The notes under the pieces: model-generated
What the model saw: only the letters and a program-made list of their open reading frames with translations
Databases searched by the model: none
Told to the model about the DNA's origin: nothing
Shown here: in pieces, positions 19,318 to 62,754 of the stretch
How the letters are laid out: every line of letters begins with the position of its first letter
How positions within the stretch are numbered: the stretch's first letter is position 1
DNA from: Ianthella basta
Taxonomy: Eukaryota; Porifera; Demospongiae; Verongiida; Ianthellidae
Assembly: GCA_964019415.1 (NCBI GenBank)
Contig: OZ025881.1
Span: 1,101,201-1,165,200, forward strand
Direction: 5' to 3'
Length of the DNA stretch: 64,000 bases
Translations under genes and position numbers: made by a program

Positions 19318-20972
19318 ATGACTACTCTGCTCTTGTGCCTCAGTTTGTTGATTGCTGCAGTGCAGTTCAGCACTGTAGACAGTGCCCTGCCTTGTGACTC
19401 ACCACTCAGGGAATACTTGCCTGAGGATTTCAGACACTGCCCTTCCTGCAGTTATGGAAAGTGGAGCCGCTGGACAGGTTCCATCCCAGTACAAGTGAGA
19501 GTTAACCACACATGTGACAGTGGAAAGGCAAGGAAGTATGAGCGTTCCGGAACAGCTGTACCTGGCAGCACATGCACAACAGATACAGTCAAAGAGTACA
19601 AGTATGAATGTGAGCAATTAACACAGAGGTATAAAATATGAATGGATTAAAACATTTAGTTAATTGTTTACTTCCACTTTATATACCTAGGTGAACCGAC
19701 ATTGACACAGAAGGCAGAGCTGATAATTCAATCACTTCGTCTTGGAGTAGATGCAGATAGTACAACTCGCACACCTGCACCTGTGACAAGGTCTCCACTA
19801 ACAAGAAAAGGAGAACCAGGTATTCCTGGTTGGGATGCTGCTTGTCCAACTGCCAGCAGGCAAGCTAACAACAGGATATGTCCAAACATATGTTCCAGGG
19901 GTATGTGCAGTATGCATGCATGCATGATGTACTGTGGTATATGTATACCAAGATCACTTTGAATATGTAAAACCAGCTACATATTTCCAGTAAGCCACAC
20001 TATACATTGTGCTGCTGTAAATGCAAGGTATGCTTGGTTCTGATAAGGTTGTGAGCTGTGCTTTGCATTTAGACAGACAAGCACACTTTGTCTTGCATGC
20101 ATGTACATAATTTTCTAATTGAAGTGGCTTCATGTCTGCTCATGTGTTAATGTACTCACTCTGAAGGTAAACGATCCCTAATGGAAGAGGAGGAATTTGC
20201 AGTGATCAGCGCTCCAGAGCTACATATTTTAGACCCAGCTGTTCCTGTGGAGTCCTTTAACATGGAAGAGAGGGTGAATGCCATTCATGAGCGAAGACGT
20301 CGCCAGACTTGCCCTAATCAAGAAAATCAGGACAATATCAGATACGTTCTGTTTATTGTGGATACATCTGGGAGCATTGGTCGCAGCCGCTTTGTAAGTG
20401 TAAGAGATGTCTTGGCAAACATGTCTTCAACACTGTGCGACCATCTCCGAGTGGCTATGATAACATACAGCCATGATATCAACCTTGAGTTCTGCTTTAA
20501 CTGCCACACTGACAGGCGTGACATTTTGAATGCCATCAAACGGGTCCAGTATCGAGGGGGGACAACTCACACCACTGATGCCACCAAGTGTGCCTGTCAG
20601 ACCATGCTTACTAACAAGTGTGGACTTCCAAATGGTGACATTACACCGAACATTGACATCGTATACCTCACTGATGGTAGACATAACGGGCCATGCAGAG
20701 GAGATCTAGACCAGGAACTGGACTGCTTCCACAGACCAAGCCGGTCCAACATCAACACTTACGCTATTGCAATTGGGAATCCAGCTTATGAGAGTGTGCA
20801 GGCCTTGGAGAACCCACGCAACTCAGGGAATTCACATGTTTTCAATGTGGCCGACTTTACCGAACTCAAGGAACTGTTTCGCTTAATCTTGAAGGTACTG
20901 AAGCAGGTGGACTCAAGAGGTCAACCCAAGTTTAACTGCATCTCTCATGACCAGAGACCATGTCGTGGGTGA
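19318..20972 (+). CDS. vWA5: secreted TSP1-like / vWA-domain protein
   Basis: Exons 19318-19609, 19691-19900 and 20167-20972 join in phase 1 to 435 residues. The start was placed at MTTLLLCLSLL, which aligns with the other members; an in-frame upstream ATG at 19249 lies before the TATA-like box. A signal peptide is followed by a Cys module with WSRW, then a short linker with GEPGIPGWD and CPTASRQANNRICPNICSRG. Next come a GKRS start of the last exon, RRRR, and a vWA domain with DTSGS, THTTDA and LTDG. It lacks the long Pro repeats of vWA6. The last exon is a mosaic: most of it equals vWA2 almost base for base, but the segment around 20690-20730 (GGAGATCTAGACCAGGAACT) matches vWA1, which suggests gene conversion among paralogues. 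Confidence 0.9.
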
Positions 20973-21690
20973 CCTAAAGTTAACACTACCAATGGTGCTG
21001 CTCTACATCGATCTAGGCTTACATACAGTTCATTCCTTTACTCACAACAAGCATACATTACAGTTATTCAGTGTGTAAAAACAAATGTTTTGATCCAGGG
21101 TGAATCTAGGCTTACATACATACAGTTCATTCTTTTACTCACAACAAGCATTTTACTCCAATATACAGCCCACCATACATCTAGTTATACAATTATAATT
21201 ATAGGCACTATTCTTTATTGATGCTACCCATTCTTAGTTTGCGAGTAGAAAGGCCCTCTGCATTGCCTCGGCCAAGTGATGGATGTGTAGGAGCTATGGG
21301 GCCGCTGTAGGGTACAGTGCAGTTACAGAACTTTAAATCATGCATAGTTCTTGCATGTATGATTGCACAGGTTATACACAGCTATATCTACCTATTCATG
21401 CAAGCTGTGTGATTACTTCTGTTCTTGCGGATTTAAGTTAACTTCTGGCACTGACTAGCTGCATGATGTGCCACTACTTATGTACACATTGCCTAACTGA
21501 TCATGAGCTTCATGCTAATGATGCAGCAAGGTATAGAACAGCTGGAATACTTTTTCTGCACTACTCCACCATCCTTATACCAAAAGCCTTCAATGACATG
21601 CATAATTATATACAGTATATGCATTTGTGCCTTGCCATAATGAGTGAAATTAGATAATTATTGTACATATGCACGCATGAATGTACATAT
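20973..21690. other. Spacer after vWA5
   Basis: Contains an internal duplication of a ~45-bp block (TCTAGGCTTACATACA near 21012 and 21108) and 3'-flank sequence shared with the region after vWA2. No gene seen. Confidence 0.45.
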
Positions 21691-38764: not shown

Positions 38765-40812
38765 ATGGCTACTCTGCTCTTGTGTCTCAGTTTGTTGATT
38801 GCTGCAGTGCAGTACAGCACTGTGGACAGTGCCCTACCTTGCAACTCACCACTCAGACAGTACTTGCCTCAAGAATTCACACACTGCTCAACCAGGCAGC
38901 CATGCAGATACGGATCGTGGAGCCCCTGGACAAGTTCCATCCCAGTACAAGTGAGAGCTGACTCCTCATGTGACAGTGGGAAAGCAAGGAAGTACGAGCG
39001 TTCCAAAACATCTGTACCTGGTACCACATGCACACCGGATACAGTCAAAGAGTACAAGTATGAATGTAAGCAATTATGAAGAATAAATCTGGGTTGGATC
39101 TCTAATCATTCCATTCAATTGTTTGCTTGAATCTTTCAACATATATAGGTGAACCAACACTGAGGCAGAAAGCAGAGCTGATCATTCGGTCACTTCGTCT
39201 TGGAGTTGATGCTGATGGAGACCAAAGTACTACTCGTCCAACCCTACATGTGACAACGCCTCCACCAGTACGTGTTACAAGGCCTCCACCAGTACGTGTG
39301 ACAAAGCTTCCACCAATACGTGTGACAACGCCTCGAGCAACACGTGTGACAAAGCCTCCAAAAACCCGCATAGTTGCAAATCAACTTCCTCCAACTGCAG
39401 CATACATAACTTGCTCTGATGGAACTAAAATACCTGCAGGACAGACTTGCCCACCTGTTCGGTTCACTACAGCCAGGCCACCCATTTCCACAATACCCAG
39501 ACCTACTCTTCCAATTTTTCCACCATTTTCTCCATTTCGTGGGAAGCGGCAGGCTTTTGTCAGCTACTGCCCAACTGCCAGCAGACAAGCTAACAACAGG
39601 ATATGTCCCAACATATGTCCCAGCAGAGGTATGCACTGTATGTATACACCATGTGTGTACTGTGACAATTGACTTCAGTAATCATATGCATTGAGCGTGT
39701 ATTAATGTATACCACAAGCTAGAACACCATGCAATCTATGTATGTTGATGGACACACATTAGTTGCATGTATACACACATTATACATTGTGTGTCACTGT
39801 GAATGTGAGGTACATATAAAGTACATGCAAGGTTAGCTATTGCAGACAATATATGTTGTCCATTTAATGTACACTTGCAAGCACTACTAGTCCATAGCCA
39901 CATGCATGCCACTACTCCTTCATTCATACATGGGAGAACACAGTTGACCTTGCTTGCAAGAGAATATTGTTTCCTTCTCAATTAAGGTACCCCATTTATA
40001 ATTGCTCTTCTACCTACTTACTCTGGATAGGTAAACGTTCCTTTGAGGAAGAAGATGAATTTGCAATGGCTGGAACACTAGAGCTGCAAAGGTTGGATGA
40101 AGGTGTCCCTGTGGAGCCCTTCAACATGGAAGAGAGGGTGAATGCTATCCATGAGAGGAGACGTCGCCAGGCATGTCCATCAGGCACAAGACATGTTCTG
40201 TTCATTGTTGATACATCCGGAAGCATTGGTCGAACCACTTTCAACAAAGTGAGGGATCTGTTGGCGAGTATCTCAGAGAAACTCTGTGACCGCCTTCGAG
40301 TGGCTATGATGACATACAGCGATGACATAAACCTGGAGTTCTGCTTTAATTGCTACACTGACAGACGTGACATCTTCACTGCCATCCAACGGGTCCAGTA
40401 TCGAGGGGGGGCAACTCACACCACTGATGCCACCAAGTGTGCCTGCCAGACCATGCTAACTACAGGGTGTGGACTTCACAATGGCCGCTATACTCCAAAT
40501 ATTGACATTGTATACCTCACCGATGGTAAACATAATGGGCCATGCAGAAGAAACCTGAACAGTGAGTTACAGTGCTTTCACAGACGGTCCAACATCAACA
40601 CTTACGCTATAGCAATTGGGAATGCAGCCCTTGCAAGTGTGCAGGCCATAGAAAACCCACGGGATTCTGGTGACAGTCACATTTTCAATGTGGATGACTT
40701 TGATGATCTACAGAAAGTCTTTAGGCTAATCTTGCAGATACTCAATACAAGAGACTCAAACGGTGAACCTGTATACACCTGCTTTTCACATAACAAGGCA
40801 TGTGGCAAGTAA
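38765..40812 (+). CDS. vWA7: secreted TSP1-like / vWA-domain protein
   Basis: Exons 38765-39065, 39149-39628 and 40031-40812 join in phase 1 to 520 residues. A signal peptide (MATLLLCLSLLIAAVQYSTV) is followed by a Cys module with WSPW and a three-residue insertion (CSTRQPC). The linker carries only two perfect PPPVRVTR units plus diverged ones (LPPIRVTTP, RATRVTKPP), then YITCSDGTKIPAGQTCPP, a furin-like RGKRQ and CPTASRQANNRICPNICPSRG. The last exon starts GKRSFEEEDE, has RRRR, and a vWA domain with DTSGS, THTTDA and LTDG. It is the sister of vWA6, with which it shares both flanks. It probably shows the ancestral linker length before the vWA6 octapeptide expansion. Confidence 0.9.
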
Positions 40813-41795: not shown

Positions 41796-44700
41796 TCACT
41801 GCATGGCCTTAGCGAGGTCCAGGCTCTCCACATGGTATACAAATGGGACCCATTTGCTATAGCCATCACCATATCTGTGGGAATGCCTACGAGGGTCGTA
41901 GTGTCCCACCCCCGTGAGGTATAGGTTGTTGAATGGGTTGGCTGGGTCAGGAATGTAAGGTGCTTGGGCTGCAGCATGTTGGTACTTCTGCAGCATCGTT
42001 AGCTGGTCCTGAGGTAGTTTAAAACCAAGCCATGACAGTCTGTAAGGTTGAAAACCAGAAAAGTAATAAGCAATGAAGTTTGTATAATTTTAGTTAATTG
42101 GATGTCTGTTTCTTAGACTGGCTGATTAATGAAATCACTGGCACATACACATACAGAACATGTGCATGCACGATATATAATCTTGCTTTCTACTATACAA
42201 TGGATCATGCGTATTTGGAGACAGGCTGCAGTTGTATTGCACAGATGTATGCAGGCCTGGCACAATGGTCTGGCTCATCATGTAGAGATTGTCTATTATA
42301 CCAAGTACTATTGCATGCACTATCCACTGCCACGTGGCACATGTATCGTAACATACATAATGACATTGTATATTCTGCAATGTACATGCACCCTGTCATT
42401 TACTCACTTCAGAGTACGATGGCTCTTCACATAACTTTTGATGATTTTATTCACACTATAAAAAACAAAATGCAGTATTGGGATAATAGACTGTACATGA
42501 TGGTGTATATTATAGCAATGGAAGACATAATGTGCACATGCACATTAATTTGAACACAACCTTCTTACTTTGAGGCTAAATCAGTGAAGCGTTCATTGTC
42601 CACCATGATCTTCAATGACTGATACCCTCTCTGAGTTGCATAATTCCAACAAGCATGAATCACCAAAATTGACATCAAATAAGATTTCGGCTTTCCAATA
42701 TCAAGCTCCCCACTGCACCACTTGTCATTTCTCCACTTCTTTGCTCGCTTAATCAATTGCTTCACCTGCATACATACGTATGTGATGCAGGCCGTATACA
42801 GGCACAGCACTGGCCATGACCACCAAATTTAATGGTGAATAAAATAGTGAAAATTGTGTATTTCTGTACATTACTCTATGCCAGAAGGCTATCATGTATT
42901 GTACATGTAAGCATGTGGCAGCTACTGAATTATTATATATAGACAATTGTTTGAATTTAAACTGATGTATGGACGCAGAGGCATTATGCTGTGAAGAGAA
43001 TTAGTGAAAATTAATAAAGCTTTTCACTGAAATTTTGTGACCACTATCATCATGATATGTTATGTTGGTTTGTTAAATGCTGCTCAATTATTATGATCAA
43101 GTGTAGCTTGTGGGGAAGGGTCAGGTCAGTTTTATAACGCATTAATTGACTTGACCATGCACTGTGGAATGCATTGTTTGCATAAGTTCAGATGTGCAAA
43201 AACGCCGTACTGTGCATATACCGGAGAAGAAGTCCTTGTCACTCATGATTACCACATGAAATGGCCTGCTTGTAGCTATGTCATTCCATGCATGCCTAGC
43301 TTACAATGAGGTAACAAGGTCAACAGAGGTCTAGAGGCAGTGCACTGCCTCTCTGCTGAACTTGTTTCCTTGACTGCACGTGGTAAGACTGTGTAACTCT
43401 GTGGTAGGTGACTGTGTTTCTATGTTTCCATGGAAACACAGTCTCTTCCCAAACCAGTCAGCAAAATCGCTAAGACATCCCACCAGAAATGATTCCAGAC
43501 ACAACCTGAAGCCTGGCTACAAAGAATCCTCTCTGGCTGTTCTGCCGTCAACCAGGGCTATAATACCAAGAGTACATTTACACCTTTAAATTCCTCCAGT
43601 CTGAGTATGGGTTGCACCTATAGCTAGCTACTGTTGCATGCATGCAGGATATGTAGGTCAATGCAGTAAGCCTGACCTAACCCTTTCTCCTTGTGGGGAG
43701 GGGTTGTGCAACATGTGACTAGTCAGTATATATACTGTAGGTAGAAAAATAAGGTACGTATGAGTGCACTCCATGAAATTTTATGTTGCATGTGCACATT
43801 TATAATTATGTATACCTCCTCTGGAACAACTTTGATAAACTGGACTTGCCACTTTGAAGCAGATGCGGAGAACCTAAACAGAAAGCAATTAAGGTGTATC
43901 CAAGACTACAATTAAATGCATGCATGAACACTATGTACAGCACTATAATTCTAACAAACTCTCTATACACACTTACAACCAATGTATAATCCATTTGCAT
44001 GATCATGAATTCCACAAAAACAGCTTACATTTTCAGTGTTTGCTCCAGATTACCCCTAGCTGCCTGACCAGAGAAGTATTGTAATAGCTGATCCTGGCTG
44101 CGCCACCAGGGACTCATCAGCAAGTCACACTTGATCACCTTCCCATTTCGAGGAGTAATTTTGAACTGTACACCATGTTCTGTAATGTTCATCTTTTCAT
44201 AATCAGGCATTTGCGATGGTGAGAATTTTGATTGCAGGGAATTATTCAGCCTTACAGCCCACCACCTAGCTGACTGTGGCTCATTTCCATTGGTCAGCAT
44301 GATCTGCACTGTGATGCCTATACATAACAAAAATGAAGTGGGTACATACAGATCTCAGGACAGCCAGCTCAGTGGAATATAACGAAGTGAGGGCTTCTCA
44401 GCTGGCTCAGGCATCAGAAAGGGTTGGTTCTCTAATACCAGCTTCACAACAGGGTTGAAAACCTTGCCGACGTTTCGACCAGATGCTCTGGTCTTCTTCG
44501 CCCTGAAGAAGACCAGAGCATCTGGTCGAAATGTCGGCAAGGTTTTCAACCCTGTTGTGAAGCTGGTATTAGAAAACCAACCCTTTCTGAGCGGAATATA
44601 ATGCATACACAACACAAATGTAGTGCATGCTCTGTCTATAGATACCTAATAATTTGGCCCACAGTTTTCAAATAAAGTACACACTGTATATAGTGTGCTG

Positions 44701-45307
44701 TTCTCAGAGACATGTATACATGAATGCAGAATGGACAAGGGCACAGTATAATATTATGTTAGATTATTTTAATCAATACACATTAATTCTATTGAATAAT
44801 ATCATGTTTCCAAACCTTCATGACACTATATATCACTTTATATCATGCAGGCCGGGGGTAGAGGGGGGACATGTGCCCCTTGTATGTACGTATCCCCAGC
44901 TCCTTACATATGGACTTTTAGCAACAGTATATAGGTATTTCACTTTGTTTCATGCTTTATGTACGTACATATCTTATGACATTAGCTATACATATAATAA
45001 TAAATTAACCTACTTTCGGAGTACAGGACAAGGTCAGCATCAAAGTTCCCTGGTACAGTTGTTCCGTGTCCCAAAGAGCCTCCCTTTACAACTTCATTTG
45101 CGGTCACGAATTTGCAATTCTACATGAGAGAAGATTGATTTTGTAATTGAAGAGAACTCACCTAGCTATAGTATCCAAGCATTGCACTAATTCTACTTTT
45201 CATGCTGTTACCTGGAGCATTCCTACTACTTGGTTGACGACGGCATCGGCATCCGCGACTAGGATGTCGTTTGACTCCCCAGGCTCTTCGTAGACTCTAC
45301 AAGCCAT
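41796..45307 (-). CDS. OAS-B: 2'-5'-oligoadenylate synthetase-like gene
   Basis: Six exons, minus strand: 45212-45307, 45014-45119, 44029-44317, 43816-43873, 42569-42765 and 41796-42039. All junctions are GT-AG and the phases close exactly, giving 329 residues. The N-terminus MACRVYEEPGESND is longer than in the other copies. Exon 2 has GGSLGHGTTVPG and NFDADLV (catalytic Asp pair). Exon 3 has the third Asp in IKCDLLMSPWW. Exon 4 is the conserved KWQVQFI segment, exon 5 has LIKRAKKWRND, and exon 6 ends with APYIPDPANPFNNLY. The enzyme should be catalytically competent by motif. Sequence is clearly diverged from OAS-A and the triple OAS, so it is an older paralogue. An 85-bp-arm hairpin lies in the intron between exons 2 and 3. 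In vertebrates the product activates RNase L; whether sponges have an equivalent is not known from this window. Confidence 0.9.
44415..44589. repeat. 85-bp-arm near-perfect hairpin in an OAS-B intron
   Basis: The left arm, 44415-44499 (CAGAAAGGGTTGGTTCTC...), and the right arm, 44505-44589, are inverted copies with two mismatches over 85 bp and a 5-base loop. Flanking GGAATATAA at 44374-44382 and 44593-44601 could be a target-site duplication. Probably a young fold-back element. Transcribed with OAS-B, it would form a long dsRNA stem. Confidence 0.85.
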
Positions 45308-46080
45308 GATCTCAAACTACAGTTTGATGAGACCCAATCTTGACTTCTCGTACGCGTTGTAGTCGGCTTTCCCACTGATCCTAACGCTGATGAGCACAGC
45401 TTTTGGAGAAGCTCACTATAATAATTCTTGAGAAAGCACAGCCCCTCTTATAGCTGATGTTTGCTAGGTGACGTACTGCTGCATGCATGGCATTTAGGGC
45501 ATGTCTGGGCAAGGTGGTGAACCATACAATGCTGTCATAACATGTTGGTATACTATACAAAGCATGCCATACAGATGTAAGGGCAAGCCTGGGCAAAAAG
45601 GGCAAGCCTGGGCAAAGCGGCTCAACTATGCCATTCCTCCTAATAAGTCACGTTTATTGTGTACATATATAGGTGCATGGCATGTTCGGGCATGCCTCTG
45701 TGGGTGATCGAATCTATAAGGCAATGACGCACACAAACATGTACTACGTACATACATATGTCAATGTCTGGCATTTTCTATTGCACGTATACACCTGAAA
45801 CCTGCATGCTCTCCTACTTCCGATTATTATGATTTACTTCCTTTGCTGGCATAATAATATGCTTGGTGGTGATTGCACTAAGTCTAGCCATCATTTTCTC
45901 ACCATGTACATATATACCCTTTATCCCTTTAGAAGCCATAATTTCCATTCCCACACAGTTACTGCTGATACTGATATTGGTCTTCTGCATGCAACTGCAT
46001 ATATTTGAGTACAATTATAATGTTCACATTTCACAGACAGAAATTAAGTAATACTATGCATGGTTATGTACACACACACT
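45308..46080. other. Spacer between OAS-B and the triple OAS
   Basis: Upstream of OAS-B and downstream of the triple OAS. It contains a small direct repeat GGGCAAGCCTGGGCAAA at 45582-45620. No gene seen. Confidence 0.45.
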
Positions 46081-48171
46081 ATGCAGTTAGCCAGCTCAAA
46101 TCTATAAAACAGCATTAAACTATATCTATCTGCAATCAGCATGGTTTCACTACGCACTATATACAGCTCCACGCAGATCCAAGGACCATACTTTCTCGGC
46201 AAATGGTCCCCACTTGCCATTGCCCGCATCATATTCACAGAAATGTCTGTCAGGTTGGTATGGGCCCACCCCAGATAGGTACATGTTGTTGAAGGGGTTG
46301 GCAGGATCAAGAATGTAGGGCTGGGGTACTCTGGCACTGGGGTATTCTTCCAGCTGCTGGATCCAAGAGATTCTGATACAGAGTGGGAAATAGTAATATA
46401 AAATGGATAACCCATCAATATCAGATATAATTATACAATTTCAATACATTTTCAACCTGGCTGTTGCTAGGGTCATCAAACTCTGGGTGTCTGTCACATG
46501 CATGAGCAACCTTTACTTGCCCTCCTTCCATGCACGCGCATGTAGAGCAAGCAGCATTGCAGCCTGGAAGCAGGCTGGGAAACAGATCAATTGGTGCAAA
46601 CATGTAAAGTTGTATTGCTCGCACCTAAAATTGTGGTGGTTTTGCACGTCTTCTCTCATAATAGCAGCTACACTGAGTGAAAGACAATAAATGTAATAAA
46701 TTTTGCTGTAAATTAAAACTCAGTGACACAAAGTTGTGCTTGTATTATAATTAGCAGCACCTATACACTCACTTTCGGGCAAGTGTGTCCATGTTGACTC
46801 TCTCCACCATGTCACTGTAGGTTCTGTAGCCCAATTGCTCCTTGTAATCACAACAAGCTGAAATCACTAGTACAGCCATTAGGTATGACTTTGGTCTCCC
46901 ACTGTTTGGTAGGTGATCGGGCCACTGGTCATTTCTCCACTTCTTGGCCGTTTTGATCAGCTCTTTCATCTACAAAATGCATGCATGTGATGATCCAGGC
47001 ACACACAGATTAACTGTCTACAAACATGCAAAATGTTAACATCTTCATTCTTGACATACTTGGTTTGGAAATTGCTCAATGAACTCAACTTGCCACTTTG
47101 AGGCTGAGGCTGAGAATCTATACGGTATAAGTAAGTACGTACACAGCTGCTTTTGATTTGCATGCCAGAACGACATACTTAAGCACACATGAATTTGAAG
47201 GCACATGCATGCAGCCCTTAAATGGTCGACCCTTACGTCTGCAGTATCCCAGGCCACTGGTAAGGACTGCATCGCTGCTTATAGTATGACAAGCTGTCAA
47301 GCAGTGTCTTCTTGCTTTCATAGTAGGGGCTCAACAGTAGGTCGATTTTGATCTCTTTATTTCCACCGAAAATGACTTTGAAGCTGACGGCATGCTCTTT
47401 GGTTTGTTCCCACTGGTAACCATGTAGGTTTTGACGCAGAAATCTATCCATGTTCTGTGCCCAGGCAGTAGCCGTCACTGAACTCAGCATGCCCTGCTCA
47501 GTAATGTCTGTTATGTAAAGGTTGATTTATATGATTTATGATGTATATATATAGTGCAGTAACTAATATGCTGCATGCTGGGATTCAACTTGCATGCTTG
47601 AGATGTATGCAACATGGCTCCTTCCCTCCCCCAAAGATGAATAGTGCATATGGGTGCATAAAAACATATTGAATATTATGGACTCTCAGGGAAGGGGCAC
47701 AGAACATGCATGTTGCATAAATACCCATTATATATATATATATGTATACGTTTCTGCTCTCTTATAGCTATCCCTTTTGTACAGGGCATTAACTTAGTCT
47801 ACTGGTAATTGCTAACAGCATGGTCTTTGTACTTAAACCTATCCTTAGTGTTGTGCACATGTCCAAACATACTGCCAATAGCAGTAGCTCACCAGTTGAG
47901 TACATTACTAGGTCCACATCAAAGTGCCCTGGCACAGCAGTTCCGTGGCCCAAAGAGCCTCCCTTGACAACTTCATTGGCCACAAAAAGACGCCTAGGCC
48001 CCTATAGAAGAAGGAACATGTAATCACAGTCCATTGAGAGTAAGTTTCTATACAGATATTCAGATCACCAACTTATTGCAGAACAAAATATAGAACTAGC
48101 CAGCTTTCTATCTACATACCTGCAGCAGCTGCACAATCTGATGGATGATTGCTTGTGCATCAGCAACCCTG
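46081..48171 (-). repeat. OAS tandem unit 1 (3'-most)
   Basis: The terminal unit. From about 46280 onward it matches unit 2 almost base for base (offset 2112), but 46081-46275, the end of the last exon and 3' flank, is clearly diverged. It ends with ...DLRGAVYSA and a stop, and its equivalent of the linking donor reads GCGTGGAG, not GTGAGT. Confidence 0.9.
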
Positions 48172-51100
48172 ATGCAGCTAGCCAGCTCAAAATCTACAAA
48201 ACAGCATTACTAAACTATATCTATCTGCAATCATATAATACAGAATGTTTTCACTACATACTATATACAGCTGCCCTCACTCACCCAGGTTTAAGGAATG
48301 CACTTTCTCTGCAAATGGTCCCCACCTGCCGTTGCCTGCATCATATTCACAGAAATGCCTGCCAGGTTGGTATGGGCCCACTCCAGATAGGTACATGTTG
48401 TTGAAGGGGTTGGCAGGATCAAGAATGTAGGGCTGGGGTACTCTGGCACTGGGGTATTCTTCCAGCTGCTGGATCCAAGAGATTCTGATACAGAGTGGGA
48501 AATAGTAATATAAAATGGATAACCCATCAATATCAGATATAATTATACAATTTCAATACATTTTCAACCTGGCTGTTGCTAGGGTCATCAAACTCTGGGT
48601 GTCTGTCACATGCATGAGCAACCTTTACTTGCCCTCCTTCCATGCACGCGCATGTAGAGCAAGCAGCATTGCAGCCTGGAAGCAGGCTGGGAAACAGATC
48701 AATTGGTGCAAACATGTAAAGTTGTATTGCTCGCACCTAAAATTGTGGTGGTTTTGCACGTCTTCTCTCATAATAGCAGCTACACTGAGTGAAAGACAAT
48801 AAATGTAATAAATTTTGCTGTAAATTAAAACTCAGTGACACAAAGTTGTGCTTGTATTATAATTAGCAGCACCTATACACTCACTTTCGGGCAAGTGTGT
48901 CCATGTTGACTCTCTCCACCATGTCACTGTAGGTTCTGTAGCCCAATTGCTCCTTGTAATCACAACAAGCTGAAATCACTAGTACAGCCATTAGGTATGA
49001 CTTTGGTCTCCCACTGTTTGGTAGGTGATCGGGCCACTGGTCATTTCTCCACTTCTTGGCCGTTTTGATCAGCTCTTTCATCTACAAAATGCATGCATGT
49101 GATGATCCAGGCACACACAGATTAACTGTCTACAAACATGCAAAATGTTAACATCTTCATTCTTGACATACTTGGTTTGGAAATTGCTCAATGAACTCAA
49201 CTTGCCACTTTGAGGCTGAGGCTGAGAATCTATACGGTATAAGTAAGTACGTACACAGCTGCTTTTGATTTGCATGCCAGAACGACATACTTAAGCACAC
49301 ATGAATTTGAAGGCACATGCATGCAGCCCTTAAATGGTCGACCCTTACGTCTGCAGTATCCCAGGCCACTGGTAAGGACTGCATCGCTGCTTATAGTATG
49401 ACAAGCTGTCAAGCAGTGTCTTCTTGCTTTCATAGTAGGGGCTCAAGAGTAGGTCGATTTTGATCTCTTTATTTCCACCGAAAATGACTTTGAAGCTGAC
49501 GGCATGCTCTTTGGTTTGTTCCCACTGGTAACCATGTAGGTTTTGACGCAGAAATCTATCCATGTTCTGTGCCCAGGCAGTAGCCGTCACTGAACTCAGC
49601 ATGCCCTGCTCAGTAATGTCTGTTATGTAAAGGTTGATTTATATGATTTATGATGTATATATATAGTGCAGTAACTAATATGCTGCATGCTGGGATTCAA
49701 CTTGCATGCTTGAGATGTATGCAACATGGCTCCTTCCCTCCCCCAAAGATGAATAGTGCATATGGGTGCATAAAAACATATTGAATATTATGGACTCTCA
49801 GGGAAGGGGCACAGAACATGCATGTTGCATAAATACCCATTATATATATATATATGTATACGTTTCTGCTCTCTTATAGCTATCCCTTTTGTACAGGGCA
49901 TTAACTTAGTCTACTGGTAATTGCTAACAGCATGGTCTTTGTACTTAAACCTATCCTTAGTGTTGTGCACATGTCCAAACATACTGCCAATAGCAGTAGC
50001 TCACCAGTTGAGTACATTACTAGGTCCACATCAAAGTGCCCTGGCACAGCAGTTCCGTGGCCCAAAGAGCCTCCCTTGACAACTTCATTGGCCACAAAAA
50101 GACGCCTAGGCCCCTATAGAAGAAGGAACATGTAATCACAGTCCATTGAGAGTAAGTTTCTATACAGATATTCAGATCACCAACTTATTGCAGAACAAAA
50201 TATAGAACTAGCCAGCTTTCTATCTACATACCTGCAGCAGCTGCACAATCTGATGGATGATTGCTTGTGCATCAGCAACCCTGATGCAGCTAGCCAGCTC
50301 AAAATCTACAAAACAGCATTACTAAACTATATCTATCTGCAATCATATAATACAGAATGTTTTCACTACATACTATATACAGCTGCCCTCACTCACCCAG
50401 GTTTAAGGAATGCACTTTCTCTGCAAATGGTCCCCACCTGCCGTTGCCTGCATCATATTCACAGAAATGCCTGCCAGGTTGGTATGGGCCCACTCCAGAT
50501 AGGTACATGTTGTTGAAGGGGTTGGCAGGATCAAGAATGTAGGGCTGGGGTACTCTGGCACTGGGGTATTCTTCCAGCTGCTGGATCCAAGAGATTCTGA
50601 TACAGAGTGGGAAATAGTAATATAAAATGGATAACCCATCAATATCAGATATAATTATACAATTTCAATACATTTTCAACCTGGCTGTTGCTAGGGTCAT
50701 CAAACTCTGGGTGTCTGTCACATGCATGAGCAACCTTTACTTGCCCTCCTTCCATGCACGCGCATGTAGAGCAAGCAGCATTGCAGCCTGGAAGCAGGCT
50801 GGGAAACAGATCAATTGGTGCAAACATGTAAAGTTGTATTGCTCGCACCTAAAATTGTGGTGGTTTTGCACGTCTTCTCTCATAATAGCAGCTACACTGA
50901 GTGAAAGACAATAAATGTAATAAATTTTGCTGTAAATTAAAACTCAGTGACACAAAGTTGTGCTTGTATTATAATTAGCAGCACCTATACACTCACTTTC
51001 GGGCAAGTGTGTCCATGTTGACTCTCTCCACCATGTCACTGTAGGTTCTGTAGCCCAATTGCTCCTTGTAATCACAACAAGCTGAAATCACTAGTACAGC

Positions 51101-53611
51101 CATTAGGTATGACTTTGGTCTCCCACTGTTTGGTAGGTGATCGGGCCACTGGTCATTTCTCCACTTCTTGGCCCTTTTGATCAGCTCTTTCATCTACAAA
51201 ATGCATGCATGTGATGATCCAGGCACACACAGATTAACTGTCTACAAACATGCAAAATGTTAACATCTTCACTCTTGACATACTTGGTTTGGAAATTGCT
51301 CAATGAACTCAACTTGCCACTTTGAGGCTGAGGCTGAGAATCTGTACGGTATAAGTAAGTACGTACACAGCTGCTTTTGATTTGCATGCCAGAACGACAT
51401 ACTTAAGCACACATGAATTTGAAGGCACATGCATGTAGCCCTTAAATGGTCGACCCTTACGTCTGCAGTATCCCAGGCCACTGGTAAGGACTGCATCGCT
51501 GCTTATAGTATGACAAGCTGTCAAGCAGTGTCTTCTTGCTTTCATAGTAGGGGCTCAAGAGTAGGTCGATTTTGATCTCTTTATTTCCACCGAAAATGAC
51601 TTTGAAGCTGACGGCATGCTCTTTGGTTTGTTCCCACTGGTAACCATGTAGGTTTTGACGCAGAAATCTATCCATGTTCTGTGCCCAGGCAGTAGCCGTC
51701 ACTGAACTCAGCATGCCCTGCTCAGTAATGTCTGTTATGTAAAAGGTTGATTTATATGATTTATGATGTATATATATAGTGCAGTAACTAATATGCTGCA
51801 TGCTGGGATTCAACTTGCATGCTTGAGATGTATGCAACATGGCTCCTTCCCTCCCCCAAAGATGAATAGTGCATATGCGTGCACGTGCATAAAAACATAT
51901 TGAATAATTATTATGGACTCTCGGGGAAGGCACAGAACATGTATGTTGCATGAATACCTGTCACATTTATGCTCTCCTATAGCTATCCCTTTTTGGGGCA
52001 CCAAAGGCGCCCCTATCTTGTTTTCAGATTTATAAGGAATAGTACGGCTTTATGAATTACTATAATCTTATTTGGACAGTCAAGCATGCCAGTAAATGAT
52101 TGTTGCCAATCATCTTCTGTCATTTTTCAGTTGTAGATTATCTCACCTGATGAAGCCTGAGACGGGCAAAACATTGCAATGAAAGATTAATTAAAAGTGA
52201 TTTACTGGTGTGCTAGACTGTCCAAATAAGAAGATTTGGTATTAATATCACTTGCTTGTAAGAACTATTATATTCTGTCTATCATTAACTCTATGTAGTT
52301 AGCTAGCTAGGTTTGACTAGTCTCTATGAACTATAAGCGCTAACCAGTGAGCTGTCGCACTTTCATTATTAACTCAGTGTCATTTGACTTATTATTCATC
52401 TATCGTGTATGTCGTGGTGGTATGTTTGTACAGTGCTGCATTGGACCATGCAGTTTCCTAGTACCAACTTGTACGGTGCACTTTAATAATGATAATTATT
52501 TCTGTCATTGCAAATGGCAGCGCACGCGTCGTTCTTTACAAAGCTTAAAACCATCTCTAATAGCATTTCGTTGTCTCTCAATCGAACGAAATGTGTTCAT
52601 GAACATGTGTTATATTTAATAGAGTGATACTAATAGCCTAACAAAAGATTCTTCTTCAAGATACAGTTCCAAATTTCATGGACGGACATTGCAAAATGAC
52701 CACGTTCAGCGCTCTCTGTTTGCTAGGCTCAAAATCATCTTTCTTCATATTTCAACATGTAACCAATGAACGAAAAGTGTTTTTAGACATGTTTAAGTAA
52801 TAGTATGTAGTAGAAAGCTTATCTAACTAATCACACAGCCGCAATTTAAAGGTTGAACGAACCGTTGGCCAATAATGACAGAGACAAGCGAATCTTGACA
52901 TTACCACTTAGGGTAGCCCTTTTAGCCAGCATACTCCTTCTGCAGGTATAAAGTAACATGTACATCCTCATTCAGAATGTTATGTAGATCAAAATGCAGA
53001 TTGGTCTGGAGACTTGAAGCTCTAGCAAACCCAACATTCTACTGCATCTAGATGTATCTTTTAGGCCATCAGCAATGCTGCATCACCAAACTATCTGAAC
53101 TACTGGACAAACACGGGGAAATTGCTAGCAAGTAGCTTGAGTTCAGGAGCATCCCAGTGCCCCATGAGTTTTTTTAACTTAAAATACTTGTTGTACAGGG
53201 CCTTAGCTAGTTAACTTAGCTAGTCAACTGGAAATTGCTTACAGTATTGTCCTTACACTTAAACCTATCCTTAGTTTTGTGCACATGTCCAAACATACTG
53301 CCAATAGCAGTAGCTCACCAGTTGAGTACATTACTAGGTCCACATCAAAGTGCCCTGGCACAGCAGTTCCGTGGCCCAAAGAGCCTCCCTTGACAACTTC
53401 ATTGGCCACAAAAGGACGCCTAGGCCCCTATAGAAGAAGGAACATGTAATCACAGTCCATTGAGAGTAAGTTTCTATACAGATATTCAGATCACCAACTT
53501 ATTGCAGAACAAAATATAGAACTAGCCAGCTTTCTATCTACATACCTGCAGCAGCTGCACAATCTGATGGATGATTGCTTGTGCATCAGCAACCTTGACA
53601 GCACTGGCCAT
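46150..53611 (-). CDS. Triple OAS: three OAS units predicted as one fused gene
   Basis: Three head-to-tail OAS units on the minus strand. Unit 3 (first transcribed) exons: 53546-53611, 53319-53427, 51461-51731, 51284-51341, 50997-51193, 50397-50596. Unit 2: 50232-50305, 50005-50113, 49349-49619, 49172-49229, 48885-49081, 48285-48484. Unit 1: 48120-48193, 47893-48001, 47237-47507, 47060-47117, 46773-46969, 46150-46372. Only unit 3 has a start codon (MASAVKVADAQ). In units 2 and 1 the first exon lacks Met and begins DFELASCIRVADAQ. Units 3 and 2 end in a strong donor (CTGG then GTGAGT). A TTTTGTAG acceptor 91 bp further on restores frame exactly, and only unit 1 has a terminal exon without that donor. 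All 18 exons sum to 2742 bp, 914 codons. Each unit keeps GGSLGHGTAVPG, HFDVDLV and KIDLLLSPYY, so all three look active, unlike vertebrate OAS3. If the linking splice is skipped, TGA follows two codons later and a single-unit OAS results. Confidence 0.75.
48172..50283 (-). repeat. OAS tandem unit 2 (2112 bp)
   Basis: Exactly 2112 bp from junction to junction. It differs from unit 1 by a few bases outside the diverged end (for example CTCAACAG versus CTCAAGAG near 47333/49445). Introns, including AT-rich runs, are equally conserved, so similarity reflects recent copying and not selection on protein alone. Confidence 0.9.
51992..53196. other. ~1.2-kb insertion in OAS unit 3 intron
   Basis: Units 1 and 2 read CTATCCCTTTTGTACAGGGC across this point. 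Unit 3 reads CTATCCCTTTTTGGGGCACC, then 1.2 kb of unrelated DNA, then TTGTACAGGGCC. It contains the fold-back at 52065-52235 and otherwise no convincing ORF. Either it was inserted here, or it was lost from the other units at duplication. Confidence 0.7.
52065..52235. mobile_element. Fold-back element inside the OAS intron insertion
   Basis: ATCTTATTTGGACAGTCAAG at 52065 onward is mirrored by CTAGACTGTCCAAATAAG ending at 52235. The arms are about 35 bp with several mismatches, and the spacer is about 95 bp holding CCTGATGAAGCCTGAGACGG. MITE-like; no ORF. Confidence 0.6.
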
Positions 53612-53864: not shown

Positions 53865-56800
53865 ATGTCTGACGTAGATGAGATGTTGGAGGCTGCCTAT
53901 TCTGACGAAGTAAGGAAGAAACATGATTTGAAAGCCCTGAATGTCGCTAGGTTCCTATAAGTTATAGTTGTTACGTTTACTGTGCGTGTAATCCGTGAAA
54001 GCCTATGTTTATGGAGGTTGTAATAGTCAGTGGGAGGAGAAGAGCCGCAGTTTCTGCCTCACTGTATGCTTCATGTGTACTGCGTGAATGCTCTCTGGTC
54101 CTACATTCGTCTGTACCCTATATGTGGTGTGTACCACCGTGTGTCTGTCTGTGTGTACGCAGTCAGCGGTAGTGGCTCAACGCGGTGGCCCTCTCTTCAA
54201 TTATTCAGGTTCACTCTTGACCATCATGTTCTGATGCAATGTAGAGGACAACCACACCACATTCGCACACACTAGATAGCTCTCTCTTACAGGTGTCATG
54301 ACCAAAATGGCCGACAGTCACTGTACACGTCGGCCACAAGTTGCGTGTGGTATGTATGTGTAATGCCATGCAAGCAGTTTTCACTTCAGTTCCTACATTG
54401 TGCAATTTGAAATGGGACTAGTGCTGTGTGGCAGTGCAAGAGATTTCTTCATCCTCATTCCCTTTTATCGTGTTTTCGCATGTGTTTACTCAATCTTTTT
54501 CTCCCTCACCCTTCCCCCTCTATCCATCTTGCACCTAATGTCACTCCTGTGCGCTCTCTGACTGGTTGATGTATTAGGGTCAGAACAGCGATCAGGGAAA
54601 GGTTGACCGTGACAGCCGCTCACCCACACCCGAACGCAAGACCAAGAAGTAAGCCACATAGCCTCCTTGTGTTTTGTATTCCTGTGTTCTCAGCCAATTC
54701 AGTAACTGTGAATTAGTTACTTTAACGTGTGTGTGTGTGCGTGTGTGTGTGTCAGTATCATCCATTTTGTTGTGTATGCTAGGCCCACATTTACTATATG
54801 TTATGGAATGGACGTGTGTATGTATGTATGTTAGTGTGTTATTGTGCCCTCCTATCCCTTGCCTGTAGGAAGAAGAAGCATAGCAGAAGAAGATCTCGAT
54901 CAAGGTCTCATTCAAAGAGCAGGTAAGTACGAATAGTGTAGCACATTGTGTTGTGTCAATGCCATCACACACTGTGTGCGCCTCTTCCAACACATGTAAA
55001 GTGCATCACTTGAGGACGTGAGGATGCATCACATGGAGGCAACTTTGTCTGGTGATTTTTCACTTCTTTGTCTGTCCTGCAGGAGTGACAGTGAGGAGAG
55101 AAAGAGCTCGAAGTCCAGGGAGAGACGCAGGAAGAAACGCAGCCGATCCCGTTCACCATACAGGAAGAGGAGTCGCTCACGTTCACCGTACAGGAAGAGG
55201 AGTCGATCCCGTTCACCGTACAAGAAACGGAGTCGCTCACGCTCACCATACAAGAAGCGCAGTAGATCCCGTTCCCCATACAGGAGGAGGAGTCGCTCAC
55301 GTTCACCTTACCGAAGGAGAAGTCGTTCCCGTTCACCTTACAGGCGGAGGAGCCGCTCCCGTTCACCCCCGAGAAGGCCCAGTCGGTCATATTCTCCTTA
55401 CAGAAGGCGGAGTAAATCACGCTCGCCATACAGGAAATGGCATGGGCCCCGTGGCTACAAGGGCTATGGAAGAAAGGACCGCTCCCCTTCCCCGGACCGC
55501 AGCCAGCCCTCTCCGGGGTAAGCACACTTGTAGTATTGCCATTTGGGTGTCAGTGGAAGAGACAGATATGCTGTGTACTACGGTGTGTGATTGTTCTGTG
55601 CACTGTCCTTGCTAAGCCTAACGCGTGTTGCACAGTTCTGCTTAGTCTCAGTGTGCTTGGCACTCCACTAGGCACCATATGGTGCAACGGGAAGGTTGTC
55701 AAGTTGGAGGGTGTGAGTAAGGTTGACATGGGAAAGTTGTTGGCAGTACTGAAGGAGTTTACCAGTAGTGTTTGTAGTCTTAGCACTGACAGAGCCACAC
55801 AATCCATGCCCCTTGACTTACAGATCATACAGCATACACTGCTGGGATTGTTCTTGGCCCTCTTCAATCACTTGAAAGTAGTCACTTTTGCAATGATTGT
55901 CATACTTTGGGGACTTTGGGGGAGTGTCCACTTCATTCATTTGTCTCACCTCTTCTGTTGCCACAGTCTCCCTCAGTCTCCCTCTGATGATATCCCTGAT
56001 GAGGAAAGAGACAGACGAACTGTGTTTTGTATGCAACTCTCCCAGCGTGTTGGTGTGAAGGAGCTTGAGGACTTCCTCAGTCAAGCCGGGAAGGTGAGTG
56101 CACAGTTGGGTCTGTGTGTGGCTGGTGTAATATTGGCCAAGTGCAACATGCAATGTATATGGGCGACCACTGCCTCTACACACTACAGAGAGGTTTGTGT
56201 TAAGCCATATATGTGTCCGTTGTCCTGCTCCAGGTGAAACATGTGAAGTTGATTGCAGATAAGAACTCACGGAGGTCAAAGGGGATCGCCTATGTGGAGT
56301 TTATGGAGGAGGGATCGGTCCAGCTGGTATGTGTGAGAGGGGGTGGTGTGTGTGCGTGTGACAGTGCTACAGTAGTGCTTGTTGTGTTGGTGCAGGCAAT
56401 GGGAATGAGTGGACAGAAGCTGTTTGGAGTCCCTATAATGCTGCAGCCCACAATGGCGGAAAAGAACAGGTATGTATGGGCAATGATCCATATAAACAAA
56501 CATTTACACATTAACTATAATCTCTTGCCCCGCCTCCCTCCGTGCTTGACACGCCCTCCAGAGCTGCTGCTAATGCTGAGAACCTGAAGAAGCCAGATGG
56601 GCCGAGAAAGCTGTACGTGGGGAACTTGCACCCCAACATAAATGAGATCATGTTGAAGGCAGTGTTTGAGCCCTTTGGAATGGTGAGTGTGGTGTGCGGA
56701 GGAAAACACCCCAAACACAATGACGTAGCTTAACATGGAGTTTCCATGTAGATGTAATCACCATAGTATGATAGTGATTTGTTCGTGTGAGGTCACATGC

Positions 56801-57948
56801 CTTAAGAGTTTTCAGTGTTGTTTTGCACCATGACAACCCTGTGTAAGGTGTGCAGCGTGTGTGTGTGTGACCCACTGGCCTATATAATCATGTACGTTGG
56901 CACCTTGTCCTTGTGGCTGTGTGTGTCTTTTGACCTCATATTTCTAGCTTCGCTTCTCCCCTACTGTCCGTTCACTCCTTACAATTGTACTCGAGTGAGG
57001 GTGTTTCCTTCATCATTGTATAATACTTGTCATGTCCCCCTCATCCAGCTTGACCAAGTGAAAGTGCAGAGAGAAGCAGATGGGAACTCAAAAGGGTACG
57101 GGTTTGTGGAGTTCAAGAGTCCTGAGGTGGCAGACAACGCAATGAAACACTTGAATGGCTTTGAGTTGGCCAACCAGCCCATTCGTGTCAACTATGTCAA
57201 CGAGCGCACAGCTGATATGGAGAGCCTAGATACCCAGGACATGGATGTTGGGGTGGGCATGACTGCCACCTCACGGGCCTCGCTAATGGCCAAACTGTCC
57301 GAGGGACATAAAGCAGGTGTGTGTGTGTGTGTGTGTGCGTGTGTGCGCGTGTGTGTAACATAAGCATGTTTGAAGTCTATGCTATGTGTATTGCCTCATC
57401 TCTCCTCCTGTCAGGACTGACTGTGCCTGGTATACAGCAGCAGAGTGGTCCAGGCACCACGTCATCTTGCCTGGTCCTGCAAAACATGTTTGACCCAGCA
57501 GTGTGAGTGTGTGTAGCTACTGTCTGTGTGTGGTGTGTTGGGGAGAGGGTGTTTACTGATTTGTTGTTGTATCTAGTGAGACTGGGACTGCTTGGAAGGA
57601 GGATGTCCGTGATGATGTCCTCTCCGAGGTGAACAAGTTCGGTGCAGTGTTCCACATCCACGTTGACGCTACGTCTCCACAAGGATGTGTGTATGTGAAG
57701 TGCCAGGCCCCTCAGGTGGCCACTGCTGCTGTATCCACACTGCAAGGGAGGAAGTATGGAGGTAGGTGTCAGTGGAGAAAATACGTACATGTGTATGAAT
57801 CTATGATCCTTGACAATCTTCTTTTCACTCCCTCTCTCTTCCTGCTCAAGGCAAGGAGATCAAGGCTCAGTGTATGCCTGAAGCACAGTACCACGGCATC
57901 TTCCCAATGGCCATGTCTGCCATGATCCCTCTGCGGCCCTCCTCATAG
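53865..57948 (+). CDS. RBM39: RBM39 / CAPER-alpha splicing factor
   Basis: Twelve exons: 53865-53909, 54578-54648, 54869-54922, 55083-55517, 55967-56093, 56234-56326, 56396-56469, 56562-56682, 57049-57316, 57415-57502, 57577-57761 and 57851-57948. All are GT-AG, in frame, 552 residues (human RBM39 is about 530). MSDVDEMLEAAY matches the family N-terminus. Next come an RS domain with ten 10-residue SRSRSPYRKR-type units (55140-55440), the linker DDIPDEERDRRTVFCMQLSQR, RRM1 (KGIAYVEF), AEKNRAAANAENLKK, RRM2 (RKLYVGNLHPNINE; KGYGFVEF), and the C-terminal U2AF-homology RRM (FGAVFHIHVD; CVYVKCQ). It is a nuclear pre-mRNA splicing factor and transcription coactivator that works with U2AF65 and SF3b. 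In the last domain the family's R-x-F motif reads RKY. Introns are 70-670 bp. Confidence 0.95.
55140..55440 (+). repeat. RS-domain 30-bp coding repeats
   Basis: Ten tandem units of about 30 bp within RBM39 exon 4, each encoding a variant of SRSRSPYRKR (SPYRK, SPYKK, SPYRR, SPPRR, SPYRK). SR dipeptides are phosphorylation sites for SR-protein kinases. Confidence 0.9.
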
Positions 57949-58215
57949 ACTCGCACGCTAGCACCCCCCAGCTCAAACTGCTGCTTGACTGTTTTAACAT
58001 AAGCCATGCACACACATTGCTATCCTATCACATTATATGTAGCCGTGTTTTCATTTGGATTGTGATTGAAAGTTGAAGTGGGAAAAGTGAATGCTAAAAT
58101 GGCTGCCGTGATGCTGCTATATATGCTGAAAGGCGCAATGGATAGCTTGTAGAGGACTCAGTACCTGCCTCAAGTCGTCTTTACTGCTGAGTAATAGTGA
58201 CTGCTCTGAAGTCCT
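57949..58215 (+). pseudogene. Truncated DEAD-box helicase 5' remnant after RBM39
   Basis: ATGGCTGCCGTGATGCTGC at 58100 and the following bases match the start of the helicase-like fragment at 62548, but a stop follows within 20 codons and homology ends at about 58215 against the palindromic element. It is a decayed partner of the fragment after the second RBM39 copy. The first 150 bp are RBM39 3' flank. Confidence 0.55.
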
Positions 58216-58218
58216 TTT

Positions 58219-59610: not shown

Positions 59611-62398
59611 ATGGCTGCCGTTAACGAGTTGGCTTCCAGGTGAGCCGCGACGCGCTTGTTCAATTTGAAGGGACTAAGAACGCTAATGCGAGTTATGCTT
59701 TGATAGGGTAGAGTATATAGTGTGAGGTGTAGTTCCATGCAGAGATGGCTTCATGTTCTGCAACTGGGAATCTAGCAGCTAAAAAAATGGAGTTTCCTGG
59801 TTTCCCCAGGAAGCCTCACTTGCAGCGCACCTTTCCAGAACTAAGGCGCTTGTGGTAAAGTTAGAGTACGAAAGAAAAATCGATCGTAGTGTATTTGGCG
59901 AGCTTTGGCTTCCTAGGAAATAGTAGCCACTGCAGTGAGCTAGCTGTTGATGCAAGTTAGACGTTTCTAGCTTGTTCCTAGATGAAGAAACACGCGAATT
60001 TTGGAATATTACCTTCTTTCTTTGCAGTTGCGCGCAAGTGTCACAGCCGGCTGCAAGTTGGTACGTTGGTTACAGAGACAGCGCTTTTGAAGAAGATTGC
60101 TTGCACCCTGCTTGAGTTTGATACGGCGATTTTCGGTCACGCCCATTATTATTTTTTTATTTTTAACTCCGTACTGAATGGCGGAAAGGGGGGGGGGCTA
60201 ATTCGGCAAAGCGGTACGATTCAGCAAGCGCGCCGTTGCCGTTTTAGGCCCGGGGGAACTATAAGTCGGCGGGTAAACTTTTACGCCATGACCATCACTT
60301 CAATTCCAGTCACTTAAAAGTAATAAGAGTCACTTTTGCAATGAGTGTCATACTTTGGGGAAATGTCCACTTCATTCTATTGTCTCACCTCTTCTGTTGC
60401 CACAGACGCCCTCAGTCTCCCTCTGATGATATCCCGGATGAGGAAAGAGACAGACGAACTGTGTTTTGTACGCAGCTCTCCCAGCGTGTTGGTGTTAAGG
60501 AGCTCGAGGACTTCCTCAGTCAAGCCGGGAAGGTGGGTGCACAGTGGGATCTGTGTGTGACTGGTGTACTATTGGCCAAGGTCACTAACTAGTGCAACAT
60601 GCAATGTATATGGGCGACCACTGCCTCTGCACGTCACACCTGCATTTCAAGTTGTCACACACTACGGAGAGGTTTGTACATTGCCCTGCTCCAGGTGAAA
60701 TATGTGAAGTTGATTGCAGAGAAGAACTTGCAGAGGACAAAGGTGATTGCCTATGTGGAGTTTATGGAGGAGGGACCGGCCCAGCTGGTATGTGTGTATG
60801 GGAGGGGTTGGGAGTGGTGTGTGTGTATGTGACAGTGCTACAGTAGTGCTTGTTGTGTTGGTGCAGGCAATGGGAATGAGTGGACAGAAGCTGTTTGGAG
60901 TCCCTATAATGCTGCAGCCCATAATGGACAGGTACGTAGGTATGGGCAATGATCCATATAAACAAACATATACACATTAACTATAATCTCATGCCCCGCC
61001 TCCCTCTGTACTTGACACGCCCTCCAGAGCTGCTGAGAACCTGAAGAAGCCAGATGGGCCAAGGAAGCTGTACGTGGGGAACTTGCACCCCAACATAAAT
61101 GAGATCATATTGAAGGCAGTGTTTGAGCCCTTTGGAATGGTGAGTGTGGTGTGCGGAGGAACACCCTCAACACAATGACGTAGCTTAACATGGAGTTTCC
61201 ATGTAGATGTAATCACCGTAGTATGATAGTGATTGGTTCGTGTGAGGTCACATGCCTTAAGAGTTTTCAGTGTTGTTTTGCACCATGACAGGCACGTGTA
61301 CGGTGTGCAGCGTGTGCGTGTGACCCACTGGCCTATATAATCATGTACATTGGCACCTTGTCCTTGTGGCTGTGTGTGTCTTTTGACCTCACATTTCTAG
61401 CTTCACTTCTCCCCTATTTTCCGTTCACTCGTTACAATTGTACTCGAGTGAGGGTGTTTCCTTCATCATTGTATAATACTTGTCATGCCCCCCTCATCCA
61501 GCTTGACCAAGTGAAAGTGCAGAGAGAAGCAGATGGGAACTCAAAAGGGTACGGGTTTGTGGAGTTCAAGAGTCCTGAGGTGGCAGACAACGCAATGAAA
61601 CACTTGAATGGCTTTGAGTTGGCCAACCAGCCCATTCGTGTCAACTATGTCAATGAGCGCACAGCTGACATGGAGAGCCTTGACACCGAGGACATGGACG
61701 TTGGGGTGGGCATGACTGCCACCTCACGGGCCTCGCTAATGGCCAAACTGTCCGAGGGACATAAAGCAGGTGTGTATGTGTGTGTGTGTGTGTGTGTGTG
61801 TAGCATGTTTGAAGTCTATGCTATGTGTATTGCCTCATCTCTCCTCCTGTCAGGACTGACTGTGCCTGGTATACAGCAGCAGAGTGGTCCAGGCACCACG
61901 TCATCTTGCCTGGTGCTGCAAAACATGTTTGACCCAGCAGTGTGAGTGTGTGTAGTGCGCATGTGTGTAGCTACTGTCTGTGTGGTGTGTTGGGGAGAGA
62001 GTATTTACTGATTTGTTGTTGTATCTAGTGAGACTGGGACTGCTTGGAAGGAGGATGTCCGTGACGATGTCCTCTCCGAGGTGAACAAGTTCGGTGCAGT
62101 GTTCCACATCCACGTTGACGCTACGTCTCCACAAGGATGTGTGTATGTGAAGTGCCAGGCCCCTCAGGTGGCCACTGCTGCTGTATCCACACTGCAAGGG
62201 AGGAAGTATGGAGGTAGGTGTCAGTGGAGACAATACATGTGTGTGTGAATCTATGAACCTTGACAATCTTCTTTTTGCTCCTCTCTTCTTCCTGCTCAAG
62301 GCAAGGAGATCAAGGTTCAGTGTATGCCTGAAGCACAGTACCACGGCATCTTCCCAATGGCCATGTCTGCCATGATCCCCCTGCGGCCCTCCTCATAG
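59611..62398 (+). CDS. RBM39 second copy without RS domain
   Basis: Eight exons match RBM39 exons 5-12: 60406-60532, 60695-60787, 60867-60931, 61028-61139, 61502-61769, 61854-61941, 62029-62213 and 62301-62398. All are open with intact GT-AG sites. Homology starts at about 60318 inside the intron before exon 5, so the promoter, N-terminus and RS domain were not copied. A candidate new first exon, 59611-59639 (ATGGCTGCCGTTAACGAG..., donor GTGAGC), has phase 2 and joins 60406 exactly in frame (MAAVNELASRRPQSPSDD), giving 354 residues. Two in-frame deletions relative to copy 1 remove AEKN-region and AAAN-region codons between RRM1 and RRM2. The product would have RRM1, RRM2 and the U2AF-homology domain but no SR dipeptides, and might compete with full RBM39. 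The first exon is inference; without it this would be a transcribed or silent partial duplicate. Confidence 0.75.
59640..60317. other. Unique DNA upstream of the RBM39 second copy
   Basis: Not found near copy 1. It contains a G-run (GGGGGGGGGGC near 60190) and GC-rich stretches. An ORF at 59982-60317 has no recognisable domain. If the proposed first exon is right, this is its intron. Confidence 0.4.
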
Positions 62399-62547
62399 CC
62401 TCGCACGCTAGCACCCCCCAGCTCAAACTGCTGCTTGACTGTTTTAACATAAGCCATGCACACATTGCTATCCTATCGTATTACATGTAGCCGTGTTTTC
62501 ATTTGGATTGTGATTTGAAAGTTGAAGTGGGAAAAGTGAATGCTAAA

Positions 62548-62754
62548 ATGGCGGCCGTGATGCTGCTATGCCGAAAGGCGCAATGGATAGCTTGTAGAGG
62601 ACTCAGTACCTGCCTCAAGTCATCTTCACTGCCAAGTAATGGTGACTGCTTCGAAATCCTTCCTCCCTTCTTGATGCATAAAGTGCGAGAACGCCTCGGT
62701 GTCCACAATCCAACTGACATCCAGACAAAGGTCCTGCCCCACGGTATTCGTTAG
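62548..62754 (+). pseudogene. DEAD-box helicase N-terminal fragment
   Basis: A 68-codon open stretch, 150 bp after the RBM39 second copy: MAAVMLLCRKAQWIACRGL resembles a mitochondrial targeting start. It is followed by FEILPPFLMHKVRERLG and NPTDIQ, the Q-motif that precedes ATP-binding motif I in DEAD-box RNA helicases (possibly DDX28-like). A TAG follows soon after, and none of the later helicase motifs (GxGKT, DEAD, SAT) appears before the window ends. CACG then GTATTC could be a splice donor, but no following exon is visible. The same start occurs, broken, at 58100, so the RBM39-helicase gene pair was duplicated together. Confidence 0.5.

Follow-up and report, generated by a model that had tools for sequence, protein, structure and literature searches.

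A 64-kb stretch of the Ianthella basta genome (contig OZ025881.1; hereafter the window, whose numbering is used throughout) carries three OAS units arranged head to tail on its minus strand, at 53611–46150. With a probability of roughly 0.55, this array points to one minus-strand gene that encodes a fused multi-unit OAS protein with three real units; the fusion itself is more secure than the count of three. As sequenced, the three units lie in one open frame of 962 codons including the stop, a figure that rests on the assembly and on predicted splicing. The original prediction for this DNA was a sponge-type triple-OAS gene parallel to vertebrate OAS3. A spliced multi-unit gene is still the best reading of the locus, whereas the exon count, the origin and age of the units, and the parallel in double-stranded RNA (dsRNA) sensing had to be revised.

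The 18 exons proposed at first do form one frame (2742 nt, 914 codons with the stop, and GT..AG at 17 of 17 introns), but one 48-nt exon per unit had been missed. Since both neighbouring single-unit OAS genes (par1 and par2, described below) carry a matching exon before the last one, we added this exon to every unit. It is penultimate in each unit, lies between cag and gtgcga, keeps the frame, and is conserved in both neighbouring genes. The improved model comprises 21 exons with one open frame of 2886 nt (961 amino acids plus a stop), and all 20 introns are GT..AG. Unit 3 (50397–53611), which is transcribed first, consists of seven exons (53611–53546, 53427–53319, 51731–51461, 51341–51284, 51193–50997, 50896–50849, and 50596–50397), and its 48-nt exon (50849–50896) aligns with the similar exon of par1 and par2. 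Unit 2 (48285–50305), in the middle, also has seven exons (50305–50232, 50113–50005, 49619–49349, 49229–49172, 49081–48885, 48784–48737, and 48484–48285); its 5′ part is like unit 1 and its 3′ part like unit 3. Unit 1 (46150–48193) comes last, again with seven exons (48193–48120, 48001–47893, 47507–47237, 47117–47060, 46969–46773, 46672–46625, and 46372–46150). The 48-nt exons of units 2 and 1 (48737–48784 and 46625–46672, respectively) are absent from the 18-exon model.

As had been proposed, a start codon is present only in the first-transcribed unit (ATG at 53611) and in neither of the first exons of units 2 and 1, while the last unit lacks the terminal donor and has its own stop (TAG, 46152–46150). 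In unit 2, in-frame Met codons begin only downstream of the DxD motif, and unit 1 is identical there; units 2 and 1 would thus give no active enzyme by themselves. Standalone translation of these units from an internal Met as an active enzyme was rejected for this reason. Intron 2 of unit 3 contains an extra segment of ca. 1.2 kb (51978–53192) that is not in units 2 and 1. This insert holds a 32-bp inverted repeat, and no second copy of it was found in the window save a 20-bp match at 5259–5278.

The units are predicted to be joined through two junction introns of 91 bp with the same sequence (50306–50396 and 48194–48284, both on the minus strand). The donor of the first reads G/GTGAGTGA (the slash marking the splice site) and overlaps an in-frame TGA at 50391–50389, so that unit 3 ends in ...SLNLGE if the intron is unspliced; the acceptor reads TTTTGTAG/ATTTTGAG. 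The first two units end in a GTGAGT donor whose acceptor 91 bp on restores the phase, as originally described. In a splice-site model trained on the 30 other introns of the three OAS genes (18 distinct donors and 20 distinct acceptors), the junction donor scored 7.1 and the acceptor 8.0, the top scores in the linker. The runners-up there were a donor of 6.5 at 50373, which is near the 7.1 of the junction donor, and an acceptor of 4.8 at 50336. On both strands of the window, 251 of 8434 GTs (3.0%) scored at least as high as the junction donor, and 113 of 8326 AGs (1.4%) at least as high as the junction acceptor. An in-frame, stop-free splice of junction quality occurred in 2 of 87,853 random 118-bp stretches outside the array, which is beyond chance, and in 52 of 52,685 when the thresholds were set at the lower quartile of the scores of the other introns. 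Neither AATAAA nor ATTAAA occurs in either inter-unit linker; of the four AATAAA in 53611–45308, three fall within the units, in exon 3, and the fourth (45658) follows unit 1. The predicted products are 318 amino acids with junction intron 1 kept, 637 with only junction intron 2 kept, and 961 with both removed.

Judging from its sequence, each unit should be an active 2′-5′ nucleotidyltransferase. The catalytic Asp triad (D74, D76, and D147 of the pig enzyme) corresponds to D50, D52, and D114 in the array; it is invariant in units 3 and 1, par1, and par2, and unit 2 has the same residues, in agreement with the earlier claim that all three units keep it. PF10421 (OAS1_C) matched three stretches of the array protein (E-value 1.2e-14, obtained with the model without the 48-nt exons) and was above its cut-off in par1 and par2. 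The nucleotidyltransferase motif of the array aligns to OAS1, and a profile of units 3 and 1, par1, and par2 compared with solved structures matched OAS2 (E-value 2e-15) and OAS1 (E-value 9.4e-11). Other Pfam names for the array were set aside as chance, TrbK being at its cut-off of 23.9 bits and the rest below theirs; the threefold repeat raises such chance scores. At the positions of human R195 and K199, the residue alignment places V159 and E163 of the array, and par2 has a lysine at the K199 position. The positions of pig T187 and T190 are occupied by A152 and S155. A lysine at the position of human K60, which we take to be a dsRNA-contact residue, is kept in the units and in both paralogs. 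Pattern searches for relatives gave 6 matches in viral contigs with unit 3 and 223 with the four-sequence alignment, and 53 matches in GTDB genome contigs with the latter; none of these was confirmed.

Between units 3 and 1, there are 52 substitutions in 2071 compared bases (2.5%) and 11 indels, including one of ca. 1.2 kb. The differences are very uneven, amounting to 21 of 365 bases in intron 2 (5.8%), 15 of 200 in the last exon, and 10 of 95 in the flank or linker (10.5%), with none in exon 1, intron 1, intron 5, and intron 6. The flank past the last shared codon of unit 1 (46078–46172, minus strand), from which the last of these counts was taken, is homologous to the inter-unit linkers, indicating that the duplicated block extended beyond the 3′ end of the coding part. 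The synonymous (dS) and nonsynonymous (dN) divergences are 0.048 and 0.011 over the whole unit, and 0.469 and 0.074 over the last 35 shared codons. Because intron 2 and the 3′ end differ by 5.8–10.5% despite 2.5% overall, the fusion of units 3 and 1 probably predates the near-identity of their other stretches, which would reflect later homogenisation; alternatively, the diverged pieces may have been imported from elsewhere. The near-identity that had been taken as the mark of a recent fusion thus holds for unit 2 but not for units 3 and 1. Gene conversion by par1 as the source of the diverged end of unit 1 was unsupported, as par1 is about equally similar to units 1, 2, and 3 there (75.1–75.3%, 178–205 bp).

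Unit 2 has the appearance of a mosaic. It agrees with unit 1 against unit 3 at 26 sites, all of them at or before 49062 in unit 2 when read 5′ to 3′, and with unit 3 against unit 1 at another 26 sites, 25 of which are at or after 48382. The odd site corresponds to 47335, where G is private to unit 1 and units 3 and 2 have C. Units 3 and 1 have the same sequence over the 679 bases that separate the two blocks of sites; when the differences were placed at random 20,000 times, the longest identical run averaged 176 and never reached 679. The interval 48382–49062 (minus strand), in which unit 2 switches from unit 1-like to unit 3-like, would accordingly mark a crossover or a misjoin, and the third unit would be the product either of a recent unequal crossover in a two-unit gene or of an assembly join with the same appearance.

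The latter possibility deserves weight. If the gene really joined only units 3 and 1, unit 2 in the middle would be an assembly artefact, in which a repeat loop was walked twice or two haplotypes were joined in the identical stretch; we regard this as possible, though not as the favoured explanation. A loop or a haplotype join would leave unit 2, as is observed, without a private base or indel across 2112 bp, and the distribution of the shared sites on the two sides of the identical 679 bases fits such a join equally. Position 47335 misfits a simple loop, though a haplotype join permits it, and the many other duplicated blocks in the window, the long ones of which have ca. 75–95% identity, show that duplication is common here. 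Another alternative, that only unit 3 makes protein as a single-unit OAS ending in ...SLNLGE while units 2 and 1, as duplicates without a start, are turning into pseudogenes, appears unlikely. It would accord with the TGA at the end of unit 3, which looks like the ancestral stop because both paralogs end within ca. 7 residues of the matching [ST]LDL motif, and with the fact that units 2 and 1, in which no ATG precedes the catalytic motif, each sit behind the 3′ flank of the preceding unit. It is at odds with the strong in-phase splice sites at both junctions and with the intact frame and internal splice sites of unit 1; the linkers without AATAAA argue weakly in the same direction, since par1 also has none from its stop to 2000. 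The diverged end of unit 1 by itself suggests protein-level selection on this start-less unit (4 residue changes versus 8.7 expected under neutrality, P = 0.003), in a test that comprises 14 substitutions in 105 bases of a stretch picked for being diverged. Alternatively, that end could be a copy taken from a different functional OAS gene, for which no close donor was found in the window, and the other, near-identical exons hold little information on selection. Three more points weigh against the fused gene: units 3 and 2 retain the in-frame TGA at the donor (GGT GAG TGA), where translation stops with the intron kept; the junction splicing is read from splice sites and phase; and Pfam NTP_transf_2 is not listed for the array, and par1, at 20.1 bits, falls just short of the cut-off of 21.

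A true functional counterpart of OAS3, that is, a long-dsRNA sensor of three units, would explain the matching unit count and head-to-tail layout, the lysine kept at the K60 position, and the lysine of par2 at the K199 position. This reading is nevertheless highly improbable, and the parallel with OAS3 in long-dsRNA sensing was not upheld. The V and E of the array replace R195 and K199, and duck and human OASL mutants at the equivalents of R195-K199-K205 activated neither of two tested pathways, according to PMC6019448. RNA binding was strongly inhibited in human OAS2 R529E/R533E, as PMC13372824 states; from their spacing, we take R529/R533 to be the equivalent of the R195/K199 pair. Sponge OASs are described as dsRNA-independent in PMC6307210. 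In OAS3, according to PMC7756014, catalytic activity is confined to the C-terminal unit and dsRNA binding requires an inactive unit, but no unit of the array has lost the triad. Names of dsRNA-contact residues were not found in PMC4446440, PMC4420275, and PMC7264852, and the residues found on this point in PMC7367156 were Lys42 and Thr203 only.

In the preferred reading, a fused gene of three units, a single-unit OAS gene would have been duplicated in tandem from codon 6 of exon 1 to ca. 95 bases past the last shared codon, leaving the second copy without a start codon and upstream sequence. Splicing from a donor at the former C-terminus to an acceptor in the former 3′ flank would then take out the stop and connect the units in frame by a linker of 8 residues (DFELASCI), as the splice sites and phase predict. 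Divergence between units 3 and 1 would subsequently have built up in intron 2 and the 3′ end, with homogenisation elsewhere, and an unequal crossover between two-unit alleles would have produced the three-unit array. The array protein most likely works without dsRNA, as known sponge OASs do, because two vertebrate dsRNA-contact residues are missing; fusion would then mean more active sites per molecule. When a junction intron is kept, translation would end early, and one- or two-unit forms could come from the same gene. As a more tentative and rather doubtful extension, the junction introns may act as switches that yield one-, two-, and three-unit enzymes (318, 637, and 961 amino acids) from one gene, all with catalytically intact units and matching the vertebrate OAS1/OAS2/OAS3 ladder, with the unit number perhaps varying between individuals via unequal crossover.

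Both single-unit OAS genes of the window are on the minus strand and have seven exons. par2 (41796–45307) has its own ATG and stop and encodes 345 amino acids; its intron 2 contains a near-perfect palindrome (44414–44590) of two 86-nt arms, 98% complementary and 5 nt apart. par1 (2694–4909) encodes 306 amino acids with an uncertain exon 3/4 boundary: the segment 4332–4197 is in frame only via a GTGCGA donor and a shortened exon 3, and a recent frameshift or sequence error may be present at this site. On the other side of the array, an RBM39-like gene region (55865–58216) and its second copy (60307–62661) share 90.7% identity, and the open reading frame at 56815–57363 matches RRM_1 and RBM39linker. 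A candidate start of the RBM39-like gene lies at 53865 (plus strand), 254 bp away from that of the OAS array, and suggests a shared divergent promoter of the two. Repeated blocks with mutual identities of ca. 72–94% were also seen at 1193–1996, 8561–9452, 12583–13285, 20159–21053, 30264–30981, and 39967–40812, the last of which encodes a von Willebrand A domain.

If the fused gene is real, multi-unit OAS proteins have evolved on at least two occasions, in this case with every catalytic site preserved and with two of the vertebrate dsRNA-contact residues absent. The reason for fusing OAS units would then become separate from long-dsRNA sensing. The array would represent an early stage of fusion, in which the stops are still present and bypassed by splicing and the copy number is perhaps still changing.

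Compared with known systems, the array is like sponge OASs in its full catalytic triad and in the replacement of the T187 and T190 positions (A and S in the array), a likeness drawn from published residue descriptions, and it is different in having three units in one frame. PMC6307210 reports that these two positions are changed in four sponge OASs, and that the four sponges examined are without RNase L and interferon genes. Among the matches listed, which comprised titles and abstract starts from an incomplete literature, none described a multi-unit OAS from sponges or any other invertebrate. Papers reportedly exist on the gene structure of sponge OASs and on pseudogenes of OAS in Geodia barretti. 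With vertebrate OAS3 and OAS2, the array shares the presence of three or two OAS units per polypeptide. Its units are, however, much closer to one another than to vertebrate OASs, a comparison of similarity from which the independent origin claimed earlier may be deduced. The triad is present in all units of the array, whereas only the C-terminal unit is intact in OAS3; in addition, the array is without the two dsRNA-contact residues and, unlike OAS3 and OAS2, is predicted to bypass retained TGA stops by splicing. In human OAS2 p69/p71, too, alternative splicing where an OAS unit ends sets the C-terminus, according to PMC13372824, but the choice in the array would add one or two whole enzyme units and not a short tail. 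The array thus probably combines an OAS3-like layout with a mechanism that is not that of OAS3.

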